32,830 nucleotides of DNA from a virus: positions 1 to 32,830 of the IMG/VR virus record IMGVR_UViG_3300034061_002830; one strand, 5' to 3'. Under the pieces are notes generated by a model. It was not told where the DNA came from and ran no database searches. It worked only from the letters and a program-made list of their open reading frames with translations. Numbering within the stretch: the stretch's first letter is position 1; each line of letters begins with the position of its first letter. Shown piece by piece: positions 3,803 to 31,089 of the stretch. A program made the position numbers and the translations under genes.

Positions 3803-5050
3803 TTATGCAGTTAAGCGAACAGCCCATTCAGGACGAACCGCAGCCAAGCCCCACAAGCAGTCAAGACGCATGATCATCTGGTCTGTCTTAATATCAAAAC
3901 CACGCAGTAAGCGGATGTTGATACCGTCAACAGATTTAGATGCCACCATGTCGAGGCCTTCAGGTTTAACCATCGGCAATGAAGCAAAGCGGAATGCAGA
4001 CTTGTGGAATGCAAGGTTTTGCGACAAGGCAGAGGATTCAGCACCGACAAAGACCAACGCAGCCGTATTAGCAGGCAGCGCAGATACGTTTTGCAACGAA
4101 CCAGACGCAGAGCTGTAGATAGTTGGGCTGATTGACAATGTGGCCGTACCAGTACCCGACGCAGTAGCGTTTGCCGTAACAACAAATTGCTGCAATACGC
4201 CAAGGTCAGCTTTTGTAATGGGGTGAACTTGGTTAACACCAGCGATGGTGAACACTTGTCCAGCCGTTACCGTACCAGTCGTGTTGGTCAAGCCGTTTAC
4301 GCCCAGCTGTGTTGCACCCGTTGCAGGGGTTAATACAGCAGAAGCAACTGCTACGCCAGTCACGTCGTTACCGTTTGTCTGAATAGGCAATAAGTTATTA
4401 CGCAGGAACGTAAAGCCGTCTGCTTCACCCATGTAGCCATTGCGGTATTGTTCAGCAATCGCCGTGCTAGATTGGAACAAGCCCTTGCGTGCGTTTACCG
4501 CGCTGCGGTTAGCAGCAGGGTTTAGCAATACAAAGCGATTATCCATATCTGGGCACGCATATTCATCAATTTTCTGACCAGCAGCAAGGATTGTGTCTGT
4601 ATCAAACACAGTTGCACCAGCAGTACCCACACTGTTGTAAACAGCGTTTTTAGCAAGAACCATTGCGCGGGATTCAACGTCTTGTGCCAAGCGAGAAACC
4701 GCAGGCTCAAGGAATGTTTTAGCCCAGTCTTTCAAATCACGCTCTGTTGCGATTTCAAAAGATGTCAGGTTGAATGAAACAATGCTGCGGTTGTTAACAG
4801 TCAATGGAACTGATAATTCATCAACGTCTGACATTGTAGATGTAATATCAGGTGTAGATGTTGCATTGAATCGTGTAGGCAGGCCAATGTTGGCAGTCAC
4901 ACCAGCTTTGAAGCCATTGTAAGAACCGAACGTGCGCTCTGGCTCTTTATCAATTGCTTTCACAAACTGGATTTTGTCTTCAAACATTTCGCCCATCAGG
5001 CCAGAGATAATCTTACCCTGTTCTGATACGTTTAAGATTGTATTAGGCAT
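3803..5050 (-). CDS. Major capsid protein, P22 gp5-like
   Basis: This 415-residue protein (P22 gp5 has 430) has the features of the P22 coat family: N-terminus MPNTILNVSEQG, an N-arm, then FNATSTPDITSTMSDVDELSVPLTV and SFNLTSFEIATERDLKDWAK, the segment forming the HK97-fold spine region. A Gly/Thr-rich stretch around residues 220-320 is the likely insertion domain. The C-terminus has LRGFDIKTDQMIMRLDCLWG. It follows the scaffold gene by 9 bases and precedes a strong hairpin. Assembly into procapsids with the scaffold is inferred from P22. Confidence 0.88.
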   Translation of the reverse strand: MPNTILNVSEQGKIISGLMGEMFEDKIQFVKAIDKEPERTFGSYNGFKAGVTANIGLPTRFNATSTPDITSTMSDVDELSVPLTVNNRSIVSFNLTSFEIATERDLKDWAKTFLEPAVSRLAQDVESRAMVLAKNAVYNSVGTAGATVFDTDTILAAGQKIDEYACPDMDNRFVLLNPAANRSAVNARKGLFQSSTAIAEQYRNGYMGEADGFTFLRNNLLPIQTNGNDVTGVAVASAVLTPATGATQLGVNGLTNTTGTVTAGQVFTIAGVNQVHPITKADLGVLQQFVVTANATASGTGTATLSISPTIYSSASGSLQNVSALPANTAALVFVGAESSALSQNLAFHKSAFRFASLPMVKPEGLDMVASKSVDGINIRLLRGFDIKTDQMIMRLDCLWGLAAVRPEWAVRLTA

Positions 5051-5059
5051 CGTCTTTTC

Positions 5060-5863
5060 CTATCGTTGTCTGTACCATTCCATCAGCTTCTTTGGATCAT
5101 CCGCGAGCCGTGAAAGGGTCTGGTTGGGTGAGCCACTGCCCTTGACCGCACGTAAAGGCGCGGGAGCCGCAGTAACAGGTTTTTTTGCCGTAAAGCCTTT
5201 AGCCTCTGCCTTACCCAGCAAAACAGCAGCTTGCGGGATTGACATATCAAGCAAATCTAAAAGCCTATCTTCTTTTTGAAGATTGTAGATTGCGACAACA
5301 GGGTCTTCTAAAGACATAACCAGACGCTCAAGGTCTGGCGGGAACTGTGAAACAATTGGAGTCACTTCTTGAAGAACTACATCGTAATCTGAGGCTTGCG
5401 CCCTAAATTCTTTTGCTCGCTCGGCGATTTCTACCTCTCGCTTTACAACCCAATTTGCCTCAACATTTTCTTGTTGTTGTTGTAATCTGGCTTTTTCGCC
5501 TTCGTTTAGCTTTTGGCTAATTTTATAATCAGTCAGTGCGTCCACATATTCATCATAAGTGTCGAACTGAACAATTTCTGGCGCTTGTTGCGGCTTAATG
5601 GCCTGCTGCGCCTGCTGCAACTGCGATAACTGGTCGCGCAATTGCTTATTTTCCATCTTTAACCGGATAGCGCGGCGTTTTTGCTCGGCGTGGGCTTTAA
5701 CAGCCTTGTCTGGCCAAACTTCTTGGGTTTCTTCACCCGCTGCCTCTTGGGTCTTTTCTTCAGTGGTTGTTTCAGTTTCAGAAACATCCTCTTGAATTTG
5801 GCTTGATGCGTTGTCTAATTCGGCTTGCTCAGGGGATGCCGTATCAATCGCTTCGGTTGTCAT
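5060..5863 (-). CDS. Scaffolding protein
   Basis: The 267-residue product is highly charged, Gln/Glu-rich and mostly helical. It has an acidic N-terminal 50 residues, a Gln-rich coiled-coil segment (residues about 60-95, MENKQLRDQLSQLQQAQQA), a central conserved-looking part (QFDTYDEYVDALTDYKISQKL), and a basic C-terminal helix (LADDPKKLMEWYRQR) like the coat-binding helix-turn-helix of P22 gp8. Length is close to gp8 (303). It lies between portal and coat genes as in P22 and overlaps the portal stop by 4 bases. Confidence 0.85.
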   Translation of the reverse strand: MTTEAIDTASPEQAELDNASSQIQEDVSETETTTEEKTQEAAGEETQEVWPDKAVKAHAEQKRRAIRLKMENKQLRDQLSQLQQAQQAIKPQQAPEIVQFDTYDEYVDALTDYKISQKLNEGEKARLQQQQENVEANWVVKREVEIAERAKEFRAQASDYDVVLQEVTPIVSQFPPDLERLVMSLEDPVVAIYNLQKEDRLLDLLDMSIPQAAVLLGKAEAKGFTAKKPVTAAPAPLRAVKGSGSPNQTLSRLADDPKKLMEWYRQR

Positions 5864-7982: not shown

Positions 7983-9263
7983 TTAACGCAATACCCAAGG
8001 ATTTGAATTTTTATACTTGTACGGGTCTGATTTTGGTTTAACTGGGGCAGAGCCTGCACCCATAAAGTCACGCGCTGCGATTGCGGCATAGCGTGCGGCG
8101 GACGCACCGTGCGATGTCCAGTCATGAATGGGGGAATCAGAGAAGCGCCCACGATCTTCATTCCATTTGTAAGAATGATTTTCCAGTGCGTGAATACCGT
8201 CTACGCATTTTTCTGCGTCAAAGGCCGACATTGCTATTGTCTGGCGCAATAAATCAATGCCAGGATTTATATCTTGTTCGCGCTCTAATACGATATTTTG
8301 AATTCCCAGCTTAGATAGCTGTAACGACACGCTATCGCCCCTAATATTGCCATGCCCACCATCATGAGGCAGAAAGTGCTTTGAGTATGTATATTGCTTA
8401 TTTAAAACGATGTTAGCGTAAAAACCTATCTGCTCGCCTGTATTTTCGTAATACTCCAGCCAACGCAATTCACGGCCAACCCATTGCAACCACCAAATGG
8501 CAGTAGCGTCGCCATATCCTAAATCCCAGGCTGTAAAGACGGGGGTTGCGGGGTTATATGGCACTGCGGTTATTCGCCCTTCTTCACGCGCCTTGGCTAG
8601 TTGTTTGGCATAGACTGCGCCACTACGTCGGGTGTCTGGCTCACCTTCCCAGATGTGCAAGAATGATTCGTAATCTTCGGCTTTAAGCTTTAGCATTTCC
8701 TTTCGAAGCACCTCTGGAAAAAATGGATTATCACGCCAGCTAACCTTCTTAGCAACAATGTCCGGCGACTGGGTGACAACAAAACGTTGATAGGTTGGAT
8801 CAGTAATGTTCTTAACGTTGAAGATAACCCAGATTTCGGAACCTTCCTTACGAATGGTTGGGATGAGGGTTTCCCATGAATGATTAGATACGTTTTCGGC
8901 CTCCTCCACAATAACCACATCAATGCCCTCAAAAGATTTAATTTGGCTGACGTTGTGTTTTAGGCCGCAGAATAAAAATTCCGTTCCGTTTATACCGATA
9001 ATGCTTTCTTTCTGGATTTTATAGAACGATTCTAGCCCGTGGCTAACGATCAAATCGGATAGAAGGCGGTGGATAGAGTCCCTTATAGATTTCTGTATCT
9101 CACGGGCGCACAAAAACCGCATTTTGTTCTTCATGCCGAGGACAAGCGCCGCCCGTGCTGCCGCATGGGATTTTGAACCACCCCTGCCACCAAATAAAAC
9201 CTTATAGCGTTTGGGCTCGAATAAGAATTTAAAAGCTTCAGGAATTTGAATATTAACTTGCAC
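7983..9263 (-). CDS. terL: Terminase large subunit
   Basis: The 426-residue packaging motor has an ATPase domain with Walker A GGRGGSKS (residues 25-32) and Walker B VVIVEEAE (about 116-122). Its C-terminal RNase-H-like nuclease has the acidic centres AWDLGYGD (Asp247), HDGG (Asp301) and a late Asp in DSPIHDWTSHGASAARY. This is the Terminase_3/PBSX-type arrangement. It translocates DNA through the portal and cuts concatemers. The start is a GTG at 9263, overlapping the preceding RHH gene by 11 bases with no separate Shine-Dalgarno, so translation is probably coupled. Confidence 0.93.
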   Translation of the reverse strand: MQVNIQIPEAFKFLFEPKRYKVLFGGRGGSKSHAAARAALVLGMKNKMRFLCAREIQKSIRDSIHRLLSDLIVSHGLESFYKIQKESIIGINGTEFLFCGLKHNVSQIKSFEGIDVVIVEEAENVSNHSWETLIPTIRKEGSEIWVIFNVKNITDPTYQRFVVTQSPDIVAKKVSWRDNPFFPEVLRKEMLKLKAEDYESFLHIWEGEPDTRRSGAVYAKQLAKAREEGRITAVPYNPATPVFTAWDLGYGDATAIWWLQWVGRELRWLEYYENTGEQIGFYANIVLNKQYTYSKHFLPHDGGHGNIRGDSVSLQLSKLGIQNIVLEREQDINPGIDLLRQTIAMSAFDAEKCVDGIHALENHSYKWNEDRGRFSDSPIHDWTSHGASAARYAAIAARDFMGAGSAPVKPKSDPYKYKNSNPWVLR

Positions 9264-9444
9264 GTTTAGCCATATATTCGCGCAATGCTGCGTTCATGTG
9301 TGATTGATAGCCTTTGCCCTGGGCTTTAAACCAATCAATTAAATCTTTATCAAAGCGAATAGTTATCTGCTTTTTGCAAAAATCGCGGCGCAAGCTGCCA
9401 GTGGAGTTACGGGTTTTTAACCCGCTGGCCGGATTTGCTTGCAT
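9253..9444 (-). CDS. BrnA-like ribbon-helix-helix protein
   Basis: The 63-residue protein carries an RHH-type segment: KKQITIRFDKDLIDWFKAQG (strand and first helix), then GYQSHMNAALREYM (second helix), the pattern of BrnA/CopG antitoxins. The start at 9444 has GAGGAG 9 bases upstream. No BrnT-like toxin gene is adjacent. It lies directly upstream of and overlaps TerL, so it may be an orphan antitoxin reused as a regulator, or a DNA-binding packaging accessory. Fold call good; role unknown. Confidence 0.75.
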   Translation of the reverse strand: MQANPASGLKTRNSTGSLRRDFCKKQITIRFDKDLIDWFKAQGKGYQSHMNAALREYMAKRAS

Positions 9445-9489
9445 TACTTCTAACTCCTCTAAGAACCGCAAATAGAACTTTTAATTCAA

Positions 9490-20271: not shown

Positions 20272-20317
20272 AAACGTAATCGTGCCGCATGAGCCAAGTG
20301 ATGTTATTTCCAAGTGA
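20261..20317 (+). CDS. Mini-ORF overlapping the Mom-like start
   Basis: Eighteen residues, MNSKNVIVPHEPSDVISK, with GGGGG upstream of the ATG. It overlaps the previous stop and runs 29 bases into the Mom-like frame, whose ATG has no ribosome site of its own. Translation of the mini-ORF could therefore control that gene. Its first codons resemble the mini-ORF at 19840. Confidence 0.45.
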   Translation: MNSKNVIVPHEPSDVISK

Positions 20318-20984
20318 AACCATTACAGACTACTCTGGCGCTTCATTTTCTGATATGCGTGTAGTAGCATGTGGTGTGGCGGGGATTCGTGAATTTATCG
20401 AAACAAATCATTATAGCGGCAATATAAATGGCGTAATATCTGATTACTGCTTCAGGTTGTGTTATGAGAATGAAATAATTGGCGGTGCTATTTATGGGCG
20501 CATGGCTATGGCGAATCAGTGGAAAAGGTTTTCAGATCATGAGGAGGATGTTATAGAATTACGACGACTATGCTGTATTGACGCAACCCCAAAGAATACC
20601 GAGAGTTTTTTTATCGCACGCACTTTGAAATGGTTGGCAAAAAACACAAAACATAAAATGGTTGTTTCTTATGCAGATGCCGAATACGGCCACGACGGCA
20701 CGATATACAAAGCAAGCAATTTCAAATATCTTGGCAAGGGTGTTGGCGCAAAAGTCATAGTGATGGACGGCAAACGTTACCATGACAAATCTGTCAGAAC
20801 AAAACACAACGGTAAACTAAAACCATTTGCGGTTGAGCTGTCTAATGCAATTGAAAACGGGCAGGCGGAATACAAAGAAACCGCAGGGAAGCATTGTTAT
20901 ATTTATTATTTAAGAACACCTAGGGCAAAAACAGGTCGAGGTGCTGATATGAAAACCGTACTAACAAGGAGGAAAAATGACTAA
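20289..20984 (+). CDS. Mom-like DNA-modification enzyme (GNAT fold)
   Basis: A 231-residue protein with the Mom-type pattern: NHYSG (residues 40-44), a strand pair (FRLCYENEIIGGAIYGRMAM), ELRRLCCIDATPKNTESFFI (90-109), and SYADAEYGHDGTIYKASNFK (127-146). In phage Mu, Mom converts adenines in DNA to an N6-acetamido form that blocks restriction. The same motifs (ELxRL, NSES-like, SYAD-xx-GH-x-GTIY) are seen in phage relatives. The start at 20289 has no Shine-Dalgarno and overlaps a mini-ORF; 20301 is an alternative ATG. No com-like regulator is recognisable. Activity is inferred from family. Confidence 0.7.
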   Translation: MSQVMLFPSETITDYSGASFSDMRVVACGVAGIREFIETNHYSGNINGVISDYCFRLCYENEIIGGAIYGRMAMANQWKRFSDHEEDVIELRRLCCIDATPKNTESFFIARTLKWLAKNTKHKMVVSYADAEYGHDGTIYKASNFKYLGKGVGAKVIVMDGKRYHDKSVRTKHNGKLKPFAVELSNAIENGQAEYKETAGKHCYIYYLRTPRAKTGRGADMKTVLTRRKND

Positions 20985-21890: not shown

Positions 21891-22058
21891 GTGTTTGTCC
21901 TTGTTGTAACATTCTTGCTTAATGTTTCTGGCAATTACCAGACCCTAGAAATTCGCAAACACTACAACACCAGCGCAGACTGTTTTAAGGCACTACAAGC
22001 CGTGCCGTCTAATCGGGTTGAGGCTTATTGTATGCGGGAGACATCCCGCCGTAGTTAA
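21891..22058 (+). CDS. Putative small membrane-anchored protein
   Basis: A 55-residue frame from a GTG: hydrophobic N-terminus (MFVLVVTFLLNVSGNYQTLE), then IRKHYNTSADCFKALQAVPS and NRVEAYCMRETSRRS. It resembles the protein at 18162 (N-terminal span, then S-x-x-C-(Y/F)-x-A-L). No ribosome site is visible; TATGAT lies just upstream and could give a leaderless mRNA. It converges with and overlaps the lysozyme stop by 4 bases. Tentative. Confidence 0.4.
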   Translation: MFVLVVTFLLNVSGNYQTLEIRKHYNTSADCFKALQAVPSNRVEAYCMRETSRRS

Positions 22059-22483
22059 ATGTAATCCTTGCCAGTCATCATCATGGTTGAAAGCCGGACG
22101 GCTCGCTTGCCAACTTGCTTTGCCCATTTGCTCTTCAACATATTTTCCGAGGCACTTTTCCATTCACCCTTACGGACAAACTCAAGGGTATTTTTAAATG
22201 ACAGCAACCCCTTAATACCAAGGTTAAACGCCATGTCCAAGAGAACCCGCTGCCGTATGGCATCAAGGCTATCGAACCACGGTAGGCGGTTTCGCAGATC
22301 GCGCGCACAACGGGCAACATCTGACCGTAGTAGATACATTGCCTCGTCTTGAGTAATGCCAACGTCATCAAGGTTGCGCCCAACGCCAATGGTCAATTTG
22401 CCAGCAGTGCAGCGGTATGGCTTTAGCCGCAGGCCTTCGTGTAAAATTAACTGCTCTTCAATGCCAGAAAATTCTTCATTCAT
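22055..22483 (-). CDS. Endolysin, GH24 (T4-type) lysozyme
   Basis: The 142-residue enzyme starts at 22483, with AAGGAG 10 bases upstream and an 8-base overlap with the previous gene. The active site is visible: HEGLRLKPYRCTAGKLTIGV gives Glu16, Cys25 and Thr31, with the same spacing (8 and 5 residues) as Glu11-Asp20-Thr26 of T4 lysozyme. Cys replaces Asp; such E-C-T triads occur in phage lysozymes, and a T4 D20C mutant is known to keep activity. Later segments (QRVLLDMAFNLGIKGLLSFK) are typical. It cuts peptidoglycan after holin opens the membrane; no signal-anchor is seen. Confidence 0.92.
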   Translation of the reverse strand: MNEEFSGIEEQLILHEGLRLKPYRCTAGKLTIGVGRNLDDVGITQDEAMYLLRSDVARCARDLRNRLPWFDSLDAIRQRVLLDMAFNLGIKGLLSFKNTLEFVRKGEWKSASENMLKSKWAKQVGKRAVRLSTMMMTGKDYI

Positions 22484-22811
22484 CTGACTTGGCTCCTTGT
22501 TGCGCGGTAAACCTATCGTCTGTTCCTGCCTTACGGGCAACGTAGGTTGAAAGAAAGACAATGCAGCAGTGAGCATGCCATAAATGCGAGAAGCCAGTTT
22601 CTGGGTCATTGTCTTCCCCTCGCCACCATGCCCACATATGACGCATCAATGCGCCGAAAACTCTTCCCCATGGCATCCCCTTTTCCCAGTTGCGGGGAGC
22701 ATATTTTGCTGCCCCATATGTTAAAACAGTGGCAAGTCCATCCAACGCCTCTGCGGGTATTAAATCATATCTTGCCTTATCTTGGTCAAATTTTACAGCC
22801 TCATTTACCAT
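22476..22811 (-). CDS. dATP/dGTP diphosphohydrolase-family protein (DUF5664-like)
   Basis: 111 residues: EAVKFDQDKARYDLIPAEAL, then TVLTYGAAKYAPRNWEKGMP and MRHMWAWWRGEDNDPETGFS followed by HLWHAHCCIVFL. This is the phage family annotated as dATP/dGTP diphosphohydrolase N-terminal domain, with the acidic E-x-x-x-D and His residues of a MazG-like fold. Relatives (MazZ) remove dGTP/dATP in phages with 2-aminoadenine DNA, but no purZ is present here, so a general dNTP-pool or nucleotide-signal role is more likely. AGGA is 6 bases before the ATG. Confidence 0.75.
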   Translation of the reverse strand: MVNEAVKFDQDKARYDLIPAEALDGLATVLTYGAAKYAPRNWEKGMPWGRVFGALMRHMWAWWRGEDNDPETGFSHLWHAHCCIVFLSTYVARKAGTDDRFTAQQGAKSDE

Positions 22812-23730
22812 ATTTTTCCTTTATCTCCCGCATAGAATTCCATTGTACCGACTCAATGTTACCGCCATAAATATTGATCATCGCCGCCCCATACCACCAA
22901 CCTGTTAATGAATGCTTGGCGTATTCTTCAATATAACCATCAGGCAGGGCGCAGCCCAAATTTACCACAGTCACAACGCTATTTGCTTTAACATAACGAT
23001 GCTCTGCTTTTTTATGGGTGTGCCCAAATACCAAATCACAGTCCTGCGTTTGTTTAATTTGGGCATCTGATATTGGCTTACTAACAGTATTAAATGGAAT
23101 ATGCGTAAAACACACCTTCTCAATAAAATGATACGCCCCATAAGGCGAGTGTGCCCAGCCCCTATCCTTGAGCGCAACCTCCATACGGTTGTAAAACATA
23201 CCGTGGCTTTCGGGGTTTTGATTCTCGTATCTCAATAACCTGAATTCATGGTTGCCCATGCATACATGCTTAATCGGGTTATAATTAAGCTCTGCCTCGA
23301 ACCTGTCCAGCGATTCACAAACCGCTGGCATGTCGTCATTCAGAAAACTTGGGCGCTTGGCATAGCCTATTGTGCCCGGTGCCTCATGGCCGGATACACT
23401 ATCAAACGTACCCCAATCCCCTATCTGAACGATATAATCAGGGCGCAAATCATTGGCCATTTTACCCAGCCATTCCAATCTATCTGTTCCGGTTTGACGT
23501 GAAACATGCAAATCGCCAATAGCCAAAACCCTACAGCCAGACTTGGAAGGCTTGCCCGGCTTTTTCGACGCAGCCAGACCGCGCTTAATCTGTTCCTTTT
23601 CGAAGTTTTGAGAGATTGGATGCGTCACGGGATTTTCAAGCCGTTCCCGTAACGTCGTGCGGGCGATACCCAATGCCCTACAAGCAGCCCTGATGCTGCC
23701 GTATTCCTTAATAAGCGAATCTTTATTCAT
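22801..23730 (-). CDS. Calcineurin-like metallophosphoesterase with N-terminal HTH
   Basis: 309 residues from the ATG at 23730 (AGGGG 6 bases upstream). An N-terminal HTH (SLIKEYGSIRAACRALGIAR, residues 5-24) precedes the metallophosphoesterase domain with all metal-binding motifs: GDLH (72-75), GDW (104-106), GNHE (159-162), a His in CFTHIPF, and GHTH (about residue 240). Phage enzymes of this class act on nucleotides, DNA ends or RNA; the HTH implies DNA contact. The parS-like site at 23491 lies within the codons for residues 75-80. It overlaps the diphosphohydrolase start by 11 bases. Confidence 0.85.
   Translation of the reverse strand: MNKDSLIKEYGSIRAACRALGIARTTLRERLENPVTHPISQNFEKEQIKRGLAASKKPGKPSKSGCRVLAIGDLHVSRQTGTDRLEWLGKMANDLRPDYIVQIGDWGTFDSVSGHEAPGTIGYAKRPSFLNDDMPAVCESLDRFEAELNYNPIKHVCMGNHEFRLLRYENQNPESHGMFYNRMEVALKDRGWAHSPYGAYHFIEKVCFTHIPFNTVSKPISDAQIKQTQDCDLVFGHTHKKAEHRYVKANSVVTVVNLGCALPDGYIEEYAKHSLTGWWYGAAMINIYGGNIESVQWNSMREIKEKYGK
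23491..23506. promoter_or_regulatory. parS-like site, 14/16 match
   Basis: GGTTTGACGTGAAACA matches the chromosomal parS consensus TGTTTCACGTGAAACA at 14 of 16 positions; one mismatch breaks the central CACGTG. It lies in the phosphoesterase gene over codons for HVSRQT. Probably a weak or decayed partner of the perfect site 790 bp away. Confidence 0.5.
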
Positions 23731-24122: not shown

Positions 24123-24321
24123 AGTACAACACCTTTTCTTCAAACAAGCCTAAAAGCTGGGATGCCGTGTCACGGGTTAGCCTGTCCTGTGGGTGTAAAC
24201 ACAATGGGTGCTTTACCGCCACGGGTATATGGACGCAACCGCTCAGAAAGGTCAGCATCGGGCAAAGACATAGCTTTGATTGTTTCACGTGAAACATTTT
24301 CTCTTTGTTTAACCGCAACAT
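24115..24321 (-). CDS. Rz1: Outer-membrane spanin (Rz1-like lipoprotein)
   Basis: A 68-residue frame lying mostly inside the i-spanin gene in another reading frame, the usual Rz/Rz1 arrangement. It has a lipoprotein signal: basic start (MLRLNKEKMFHVKQSK), hydrophobic core (LCLCPMLTF) and lipobox LSGC with Cys29. AGAGG lies 5-6 bases before the ATG at 24321; an internal ATG at 24297 is also possible. The mature part is about 40 residues. With the i-spanin it fuses inner and outer membranes at lysis. The call depends on lipobox plus context. Confidence 0.7.
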   Translation of the reverse strand: MLRLNKEKMFHVKQSKLCLCPMLTFLSGCVHIPVAVKHPLCLHPQDRLTRDTASQLLGLFEEKVLYCD

Positions 24322-24427
24322 CCTTCACCTCTTGCTGGCATTGATTCTTGCCGATTCGCTTTCCAATGAAAAAAGCCCCCGAGAAAAGGAGGCTGATAAT
24401 TGTAATTGTTATGGCCGCCCATTGCAT
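24170..24427 (-). CDS. Rz: Inner-membrane spanin (Rz-like)
   Basis: 85 residues with an N-terminal anchor (residues about 3-22, WAAITITIISLLFSGAFFIG) and a charged periplasmic helix (RIGKNQCQQEVKDVAVKQRE), then NVSRETIKAMSLPDADLSER. It is short for Rz (about 150) but the embedded lipoprotein frame and position after the holin support it. The codons for NVSRET (44-49) form the perfect parS site. The ATG overlaps the previous stop (TAATG). Confidence 0.7.
   Translation of the reverse strand: MQWAAITITIISLLFSGAFFIGKRIGKNQCQQEVKDVAVKQRENVSRETIKAMSLPDADLSERLRPYTRGGKAPIVFTPTGQANP
24281..24296. promoter_or_regulatory. Perfect chromosomal parS site
   Basis: The 16-bp palindrome TGTTTCACGTGAAACA is identical to the ParB-binding parS sequence of bacterial chromosomes, including Caulobacter and Bacillus. 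It lies where the i-spanin and o-spanin frames overlap, so these bases are read in two protein frames as well. A chance exact match in a genome of this size is about one in 100,000. No parA or parB is encoded in the window. Confidence 0.9.
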
Positions 24428-29187: not shown

Positions 29188-31089
29188 TCATCGTTTTTTG
29201 ATGCTTTCATTTAAATCGGTTAAATATTTATAGATGGGAATAACGTCATATTTTTTAGTGTTAACCTTAGATGCAACCTTTAAATCAAAAGTCTCCATAA
29301 CAGCTTCGCCAGTTTCTTTATTTACGATAACCCAGCTTGAGCTTTTGGGGCCTTTGGCAACTTCATTTCTAGGCGACGCAACAACTTGGCTTGCAACCGT
29401 ATTTTTAATTGGTGCTGTCTTTTCTACTGAGTTAATAGGTGCCAAATCTGGCTTTAATTCAATTGAACCACCCGAACGCTGTGGCAGTTTCGGGCGAACA
29501 AATTTGCCATCTTTAGCAATTTCCTTTGCCACTTTCCCAGCACGCAGCATTTGTGCTTGCCCAGCTAGGCCACGCGAAGCGGCAGAACCTGCGGCAGTTG
29601 CCAATGATGCCACTGGCCCAGATGCACCGAATGTAACAATCGGCATGAGCCTACTACCGAATGTTTCCAAAAGGTTCCCAAATGCGCCAGATTTAGCAGC
29701 CTTCCTGATTAGAAATTGCTCCTCTGGGGAAAATCTTCCAAAGGCTTTTTTGTTGTTAATCAAAGTATTAAACCCTGTGCGCAAGGCTTGTGCAGGATTA
29801 TTTGCGCGATTTGCTCTGTCAAAAATATCTTCAATTCGGGAAAGTTTGATTGATTTTGTGTAAAGCCGATTGGCATCCTTTAGTGCAGCAACCGTTTGCG
29901 CACCACCCCTAGCTCCGGTAGCAGCATTTTGAATGGCATCCGAAACATCTTCTTGAAAGATTGCCAGCAACCGCCCCTCGCCCGTAAACTCACCACGTAT
30001 AGGGTCGTAATACGCAGGTTTTTGTAATTCTCTTTTGATTTCTTTTTCAAGCAAGTTTAACTCATTAAACGTAGCACCGCCTTGTGTTGCAGCGTTCTTA
30101 AAATTTTGTATTTTTTCAGATGCAAATTGAACCGCCGGGCTTCTCTCCATTGAACCGAGACGGTCTAGTTTGGGGAATAACTCGGCATTAGATGAAAGTT
30201 TATTAGCTATAAAATTAACTTCTTCTGGTCGCACTTGATAACCGAGAGACCTTGCAAAATCATAGCCTTTCACCGCTTCTTCTTCGAGCATAGAAGATGT
30301 GATTTTATTTGCCTGACCACTAACGGCATCATCAACCAACCCAGATTGCGCGGCTTTCTCTAATTGCTCTTGAGGAATGTTTGACCAGCCAGAAACTTGA
30401 CTACCACCACTCCCACCAACAGCAGGAGGCCCACCAGCAGGCGGAACATTTGCACGTTTCGCGGCTGCACTCTTTGCCAGCCCCTGAATGCCACCAACAA
30501 GAGGAAGAATGTTTAGAAGGTTATCAGCGTCTCTAGCCGTGCCCTCTATTACACGTGCAACACCGGGCGCAGCCTCTTTGAACTGCCCATAGCCTTGCGC
30601 GGCCATGTTAGCAATTTGCGGTGCTGTTTTTATAATGCCCTGCAATGCACCAAGTGGGCCAGCTTGCGGTGTATTCATAAATTGTTGTGCTGCACCGGAA
30701 ACTTGACCCCTAACACCCTTTGGAATTGCATCAAGCGCAAGACCGCCTGCGCCAGCTAAAACATTACCCACGGCAGAGGTCGCAGCCCTAACAGGAATAG
30801 CAGCTATTTCCATAGCATTTTGAGGGCGCAGCAATGAAACGGCAGGTGGTGAGCCAAATGCTTGCTGGTACTGCATATCATTTTGGGCGACTTGTTGGCC
30901 TGCTTTTTCAGCAACGCCCATTAGGTCAGAACCAACCTTTTGAAGCCATGTTTTTTCCTGCTCCGGCATTGCTGGCGTGGTTTGGAACTGGCTTTCTGCG
31001 TATGACAAAACATCCTGCTCACTTGCACCTTCGGGTGCAGTCACCTCATAGCGAGAGCCATCAGGGGCTGTAATTTCATAACGCGGCAT
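29188..31089 (-). CDS. Large internal virion / ejection protein
   Basis: 633 residues. The N-terminus (RYEITAPDGSRYEVTAPEGA, EQDVLSYAESQF) is a short domain found at the start of many large phage virion proteins. Residues about 90-210 are Ala/Gly-rich with amphipathic or hydrophobic stretches (AAIPVRAATSAVGNVLAGAG), the middle is helical (KLDRLGSMERSPAVQFASEK), and the end is basic (KYDVIPIYKYLTDLNESIKK). Length matches P22 gp16 (609). Third of three consecutive genes placed like the gp7-gp20-gp16 ejection set. No transglycosylase motif is obvious. Confidence 0.65.
   Translation of the reverse strand: MPRYEITAPDGSRYEVTAPEGASEQDVLSYAESQFQTTPAMPEQEKTWLQKVGSDLMGVAEKAGQQVAQNDMQYQQAFGSPPAVSLLRPQNAMEIAAIPVRAATSAVGNVLAGAGGLALDAIPKGVRGQVSGAAQQFMNTPQAGPLGALQGIIKTAPQIANMAAQGYGQFKEAAPGVARVIEGTARDADNLLNILPLVGGIQGLAKSAAAKRANVPPAGGPPAVGGSGGSQVSGWSNIPQEQLEKAAQSGLVDDAVSGQANKITSSMLEEEAVKGYDFARSLGYQVRPEEVNFIANKLSSNAELFPKLDRLGSMERSPAVQFASEKIQNFKNAATQGGATFNELNLLEKEIKRELQKPAYYDPIRGEFTGEGRLLAIFQEDVSDAIQNAATGARGGAQTVAALKDANRLYTKSIKLSRIEDIFDRANRANNPAQALRTGFNTLINNKKAFGRFSPEEQFLIRKAAKSGAFGNLLETFGSRLMPIVTFGASGPVASLATAAGSAASRGLAGQAQMLRAGKVAKEIAKDGKFVRPKLPQRSGGSIELKPDLAPINSVEKTAPIKNTVASQVVASPRNEVAKGPKSSSWVIVNKETGEAVMETFDLKVASKVNTKKYDVIPIYKYLTDLNESIKKR

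Follow-up and report, generated by a model that had tools for sequence, protein, structure and literature searches.

The locus raises the question of why a phage genome should carry an exact copy of the bacterial chromosomal parS site inside its overlapping spanin genes, when neither ParA nor ParB is recognised among the products of that genome. The window considered here is the whole stretch of DNA analysed, an IMG/VR record of 32,830 bases, and the features at the centre of the question are the following.

24281..24296, no strand assigned: perfect chromosomal-type parS, TGTTTCACGTGAAACA
24170..24427, minus strand: i-spanin (Rz-like) of 85 aa, matching PHROG 1026 (phrog_1026) with E=0.001 and having one N-terminal hydrophobic helix
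24115..24321, minus strand: o-spanin candidate of 68 aa from the ATG at 24321, with an alternative ATG at 24297 and a lipobox-like LSGC recognised by inspection

The preliminary description had reported an exact chromosomal parS palindrome at 24281-24296, and the sequence bears this out: the site is a perfect palindrome, identical at 16/16 positions to the 16-mer common to chromosomal Par systems and first found in B. subtilis (PMC5450999). No second exact copy occurs anywhere in the 32,830 bases. The flanking bases are T/T on the plus strand and A/A on the minus strand, and the T/T class is among the two commonest flank classes of viral parS sites. Under a first-order Markov model, 1.2e-5 exact sites are expected in the window. 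When up to 3 mismatches are allowed, the window contains 3 parS-like sites as compared to a mean of 0.16 in 100 dinucleotide shuffles.

One of the weaker parS-like sites has a half-site intact and is described as follows.

23491..23506, plus strand: degenerate parS-like site GGTTTGACGTGAAACA, with 2 mismatches (positions 1 and 6)

This site lies 790 bp from the perfect parS and is unchanged in a near-identical phage fragment (L122); the chance of one 2-mismatch parS site in the window is about 1.3%. Since a position-6 change made symmetrically in parSc1 abolishes binding (PMC5450999), the position-6 mismatch should weaken binding here. The site is thus predicted to be a poor binder and was set aside as a functional parS. 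A further parS-like site with 3 mismatches lies at 30547. An arrangement of several sites per genome is not seen in the window, which carries one exact and one degenerate 2-mismatch site.

The i-spanin codons across the perfect site are AAT GTT TCA CGT GAA ACA (NVSRET), and those of the nested gene, which uses a different frame, are ATG TTT CAC GTG AAA CAA (MFHVKQ). Both translations given earlier, NVSRET in the i-spanin and FHVKQ in the overlapping gene, are thereby confirmed. The i-spanin with its N-terminal transmembrane segment and the nested, lipoprotein-like o-spanin candidate have the organisation of a Gram-negative two-gene spanin cassette; the o-spanin candidate gave no family match in profile searches. 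The ATG at 24297 of the o-spanin candidate shares two bases with parS. The earlier in-frame ATG at 24321 is preceded by a better ribosome-binding sequence, GAGGTGAAGG, so that the parS-overlapping ATG may not be the true start.

The same bases had also been described as carrying three layers of information. Frame 0 of parS holds a TGA, and the only open readings are xVSRET and xFHVK(H/Q); any overlapping gene pair across the site must therefore read xVSRET and xFHVK. These are also the only two readings found at 66 coding parS sites in other viral records, NVSRET (15) and MFHVKH/Q (15) being the commonest. Enumeration revealed that NVSRET and MFHVKQ together correspond to exactly one DNA sequence, whereas alone the i-spanin peptide can be written in 2,304 ways and the nested-gene peptide in 64. 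The triple use of the parS bases is forced by any such overlap and adds no evidence for function, so that the two frames over parS stand and the specialness attached to them does not. As the two peptides fix the DNA, a synonymous-codon test is unusable inside the overlap.

The site lies within a late minus-strand lysis block made up of endolysin, holin-like, i-spanin and nested lipobox-like genes, of which two have not been listed above.

22055..22609, minus strand: endolysin (phage lysozyme), PF00959
24657..24878, minus strand: holin candidate of 73 aa with two hydrophobic stretches, recognised by inspection, upstream in the same late/lysis block

The recognisable genes of the record constitute a small P22-like podovirus set, comprising terminase (PF04466), portal, coat, DnaB helicase, primosomal protein, Erf, RusA and a Mom-like protein. 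The Mom-like DNA modification protein (20289-20984, plus strand; phrog_1384, 2.5e-59) is a possible guard against host restriction, and an Arc-type/antitoxin-like protein (9253-9471, minus strand; phrog_4692) adjoins the terminase large subunit. The earlier statement that no ParA or ParB is encoded agrees with the profile searches, in which ParB_N (PF02195) and ParA-type AAA_31 (PF13614) had no match in the record, possibly incomplete at its ends. No integrase was found among the proteins scanned, and a separate search confined to tyrosine integrases (PF00589) was negative. Nor was a lysogeny module recognised among the genes present, although the ends of the record may be incomplete.

A scan of the IMG/VR viral contigs (viral_contigs) found exact parS in at least 120 stretches. 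The control palindromes TTTGTCACGTGACAAA and TTGTTCACGTGAACAA, which have a dinucleotide content identical to that of parS and the same CACGTG centre, were found in 11 and 5 stretches of the whole collection. T-flanked parS, as in the window, occurs in at least 120 stretches, among them every one of the 33 T-flanked stretches in the first sample; the total of at least ~436 parS stretches is an extrapolation that holds if the two scans went through the collection in the same order. The excess of parS over the controls is ~40- to 90-fold when extrapolated and at least 11- to 24-fold without extrapolation. The Pseudomonas parS variant TGTTCCACGTGGAACA (PMC5450999) is present in more than 120 stretches of the viral contigs (L320-L433 among the matches listed). 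The first 120 parS loci form 63 blastn groups and 39 tblastx groups; one large lineage contributes much to the parS excess, yet the excess exceeds one lineage.

The parS-bearing records are largely devoid of ParB, as evident from the finding of ParB_N (PF02195) in only 4 of the 120 parS records among the matches listed, with 3 above the cut-off. When the largest ORF of 56 parS loci was assigned, 14 belonged to the portal family phrog_1216 and 9 to the terminase family phrog_38, while the others included members of head, tail and polymerase families, together with a single ORF of a ParB-like family. Contamination by host oriC as the source of viral parS is unsupported, given the 4/120 listed records with ParB_N and the many largest ORFs of portal and terminase type.

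Individual loci display further arrangements of the site. Three to five exact parS sites lie within ~1 kb, without ParB_N, in L044 (10535-11462), L017 (2657-3444) and L053 (240-961), and in L017 and L044 five nearby sites stand beside the terminase large-subunit gene. L010 is a parS locus with a phi29-like head gene. The parS at 4945 of L094 is read as NVSRET in an endolysin (4415-5287), near the junction of its catalytic and LysM-like parts, and resembles that of phi29-family gp15. L029, L097, L238, L261, L263, L281, L283 and L304, together with their relatives, form a marine-type podovirus group (the portal of L029 is phrog_1216). Most of this group carries a canonical and a Pseudomonas-type parS with starts ~24 bp apart, retained as a pair.

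Conservation of viral parS was assessed at homologous places by masking the sites and then aligning the loci to one another. In these environmental pairs, both members of which were preselected for carrying parS so that losses are under-counted, 12 of 31 mapped sites were still of parS type at a flank identity of 55-70%, against a same-sequence expectation of 0.05. At a flank identity of 70-80% the same site was found in 37 of 71 mapped cases across 13 clusters, against an expected 0.76, and in part of the remaining cases parS is intact and the alignment is off by a single base. In six locus pairs both arms switch jointly from TTTC..GAAA to TTCC..GGAA, the TGTTCCACGTGGAACA type, and the palindrome is kept.

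The phi29 family was sampled differently, its members, which are Bacillus phages, having been picked by similarity to another region with no preselection for parS. The details of phi29 are taken from PMC9437464 together with counts made in this analysis. In phi29, PZA, Goe15, B103, Goe1 and Chedec11, a parS carrying no more than one tolerated change is present in the endolysin gene gp15 and the connector gene gp10, at homologous places and read as NVSR(E/G)T. All six phages share the codons AAT GTT TCA CGT .. ACA and the E/G residue varies, and B103, Goe1 and Chedec11 retain the phi29 codon at just 43-53% of identical residues; site conservation beyond protein constraint is found in the phi29 family itself. 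PumA2 and SRT01hs, relatives from B. pumilus and B. safensis, carry no parS. An exact parS is present at position 4741 of L441, the phi29-like Enterococcus phage CUB-FM of E. faecium. The Enterococcus host of this phage is non-sporulating, so that capture into a spore cannot be the benefit there.

For the phage of the window, searches of the viral collection with neighbouring genes found no spanin homologues, and the one near-identical fragment in that collection ends short of parS. Since no relative covers the spanins, the evidence for function is drawn from the class of viral parS sites. The terminase relatives G002-G004 (47-63% identity) have no parS within 2 mismatches, and in G002, which is whole, the lysis region is of another kind and parS is absent. 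The same absence within 2 mismatches was recorded for the stretches read of three Manatee Spring phages and for 80 genome loci with related terminases, and several distant relatives of the parS-bearing marine phages are without parS in the parts read. Given these absences, parS was either acquired recently in this lineage or belongs to the small fortuitous fraction of viral sites. As regards the host, a narrow terminase profile gave no match in the genome scan, and a broad profile found relatives at 45-47% identity in beta- and alphaproteobacterial genomes. These terminase relatives point to a beta- or alphaproteobacterium, at a distance too great to name the host. Neisseriaceae uptake sequences are absent.

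The best explanation, to which we assign a probability of roughly 55%, is that the site is a functional orphan parS on which host ParB loads, so that the unintegrated phage genome is handled by the host ParABS/SMC machinery. Host chromosomal ParB would nucleate on the 16-mer, close into a clamp and spread across the neighbouring phage DNA, and host ParABS along with ParB-loaded SMC would treat the unintegrated genome as origin-proximal host DNA. By analogy with phi29 and SGI1, binding by the ParB of this phage's host is likely. The likeliest benefit would be the positioning and inheritance of unintegrated phage DNA during slow or stalled infection (carrier state), a Gram-negative counterpart of the drawing of phi29 DNA into the B. 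subtilis prespore by Spo0J. Recruitment of host ParB, as proposed in the preliminary description, is supported at the class level by the enrichment in ParB-less records, the conservation at homologous places, the two-arm changes and phi29; for this phage in particular, the terminase relatives without the site argue against it, as does the presence of one good site as compared to four in phi29. The benefits suggested in that description, namely extrachromosomal maintenance, polar positioning, packaging and late-gene silencing, fit the present data alike.

The position of the site bears on an unlikely alternative, in which ParB loads and the benefit is local, its spreading from the spanin genes dampening or timing late (lysis) transcription. 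The location of parS in the lysis block, where it overlaps a possible o-spanin start codon, is consistent with such control, as is its presence in the lysis genes of the phi29 family and in the endolysin linker of L094. The title of PMC5521831 further describes ParB as repressing promoters beside parS3 and parS4 in P. aeruginosa. However, viral sites occur in many gene contexts, 56 of the 122 classifiable ones being intergenic, and many parS loci have their sites near terminase or portal genes instead of lysis genes.

The number of sites per genome is relevant to the quite improbable proposal of a decoy, in which the parS copies of a replicating phage titrate ParB and SMC and uncouple segregation of the host chromosome from division. 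Phage copies in replication would outnumber chromosomal parS, and the parS mimics of SGI1 destabilise the helper plasmid through competition of this kind (PMC10954446). Against this, a single site is present in 103 of the 120 loci listed (2-5 sites in the other 17, and two in none of the 16 control loci), and the gain is not obvious when the phage is soon to lyse its host.

A regulator of phage or host origin which recognises a CACGTG-type site, in place of ParB, also has a low probability. The phage encodes HTH- and Arc-like regulators, and a palindrome by itself names no binder; but all 16 bases match parS, and other CACGTG-centred palindromes, the controls described above, are rare. Furthermore, TGTTCCACGTGGAACA, which is also abundant and is swapped with canonical parS at homologous places, differs from it only at the symmetric pair 5/12, a change tolerated by canonical ParB (PMC5450999). 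Chance encoding of parS by the two spanin peptides is very improbable, for although NVSRET and MFHVKQ fix the DNA and relatives lack the site, the low expectation per window is joined by a collection-wide expectation from the controls of ~5-11 sites as compared to at least 120, and probably more than 430, so that fortuitous sites should make up only a few per cent of viral parS.

The functional orphan parS can be placed in a wider reading, which we hold tentatively and at slightly less than even odds. Orphan parS, in one or a few copies, may be a general strategy of virulent and unintegrated phages in many unrelated lineages, some with non-sporulating hosts; host ParB and SMC would be loaded on the phage genome for positioning or inheritance by the host, and the two-arm changes may track the host variant (TTTC/TTCC). 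How widely orphan parS occurs in viral records without ParB is a more interesting result than the single site. The capture of phi29 by Spo0J has mostly been viewed as a sporulation story. If the site is widespread and conserved in ParB-less phages, a spanin-bearing Gram-negative type among them, hijacking of the chromosome-segregation machinery would be a general phage feature, and parS could serve, through the specificities of ParB, as a sequence-level clue to the hosts of uncultured phages.

Among known systems, the nearest is the virulent phage phi29, whose DNA is taken into the spore of the infected cell by Spo0J, the host ParB (Meijer 2005, cited in PMC9437464). Both phages lack ParA and ParB and have chromosomal-type parS within coding genes, a lysis gene among them, with the same NVSR(E/G)T reading. 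They differ in that phi29 carries four sites, with one tolerated change, that its relatives conserve, whereas the phage of the window has one perfect site for which conservation in known relatives is not seen. The host of phi29 is a sporulating Gram-positive bacterium, whereas the present phage bears spanins of the Gram-negative type.

SGI1 is likewise a mobile element without partition genes, whose parS copies are bound by the ParB of another replicon; these mimics bind the ParB of the plasmid and stabilise SGI1 (PMC10954446). However, SGI1 mimics the parS of an IncC plasmid and expels that plasmid, whereas the window phage carries a chromosomal centromere. P1-type phage-plasmids resemble the proposed situation in that phage DNA is segregated extrachromosomally by a ParB-parS complex, but in them ParA and ParB are products of the element itself and work with a private parS, and the window phage encodes neither protein. 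Bacterial chromosomes carry the same 16 bp (PMC5450999), clustered near the chromosomal oriC and not on a phage. The literature searched contained no mention of 'phage parS', 'orphan parS' or similar expressions. The type of mechanism is already known from phi29, and what is new is its variation here, with one perfect parS placed where spanin genes of the Gram-negative type overlap.
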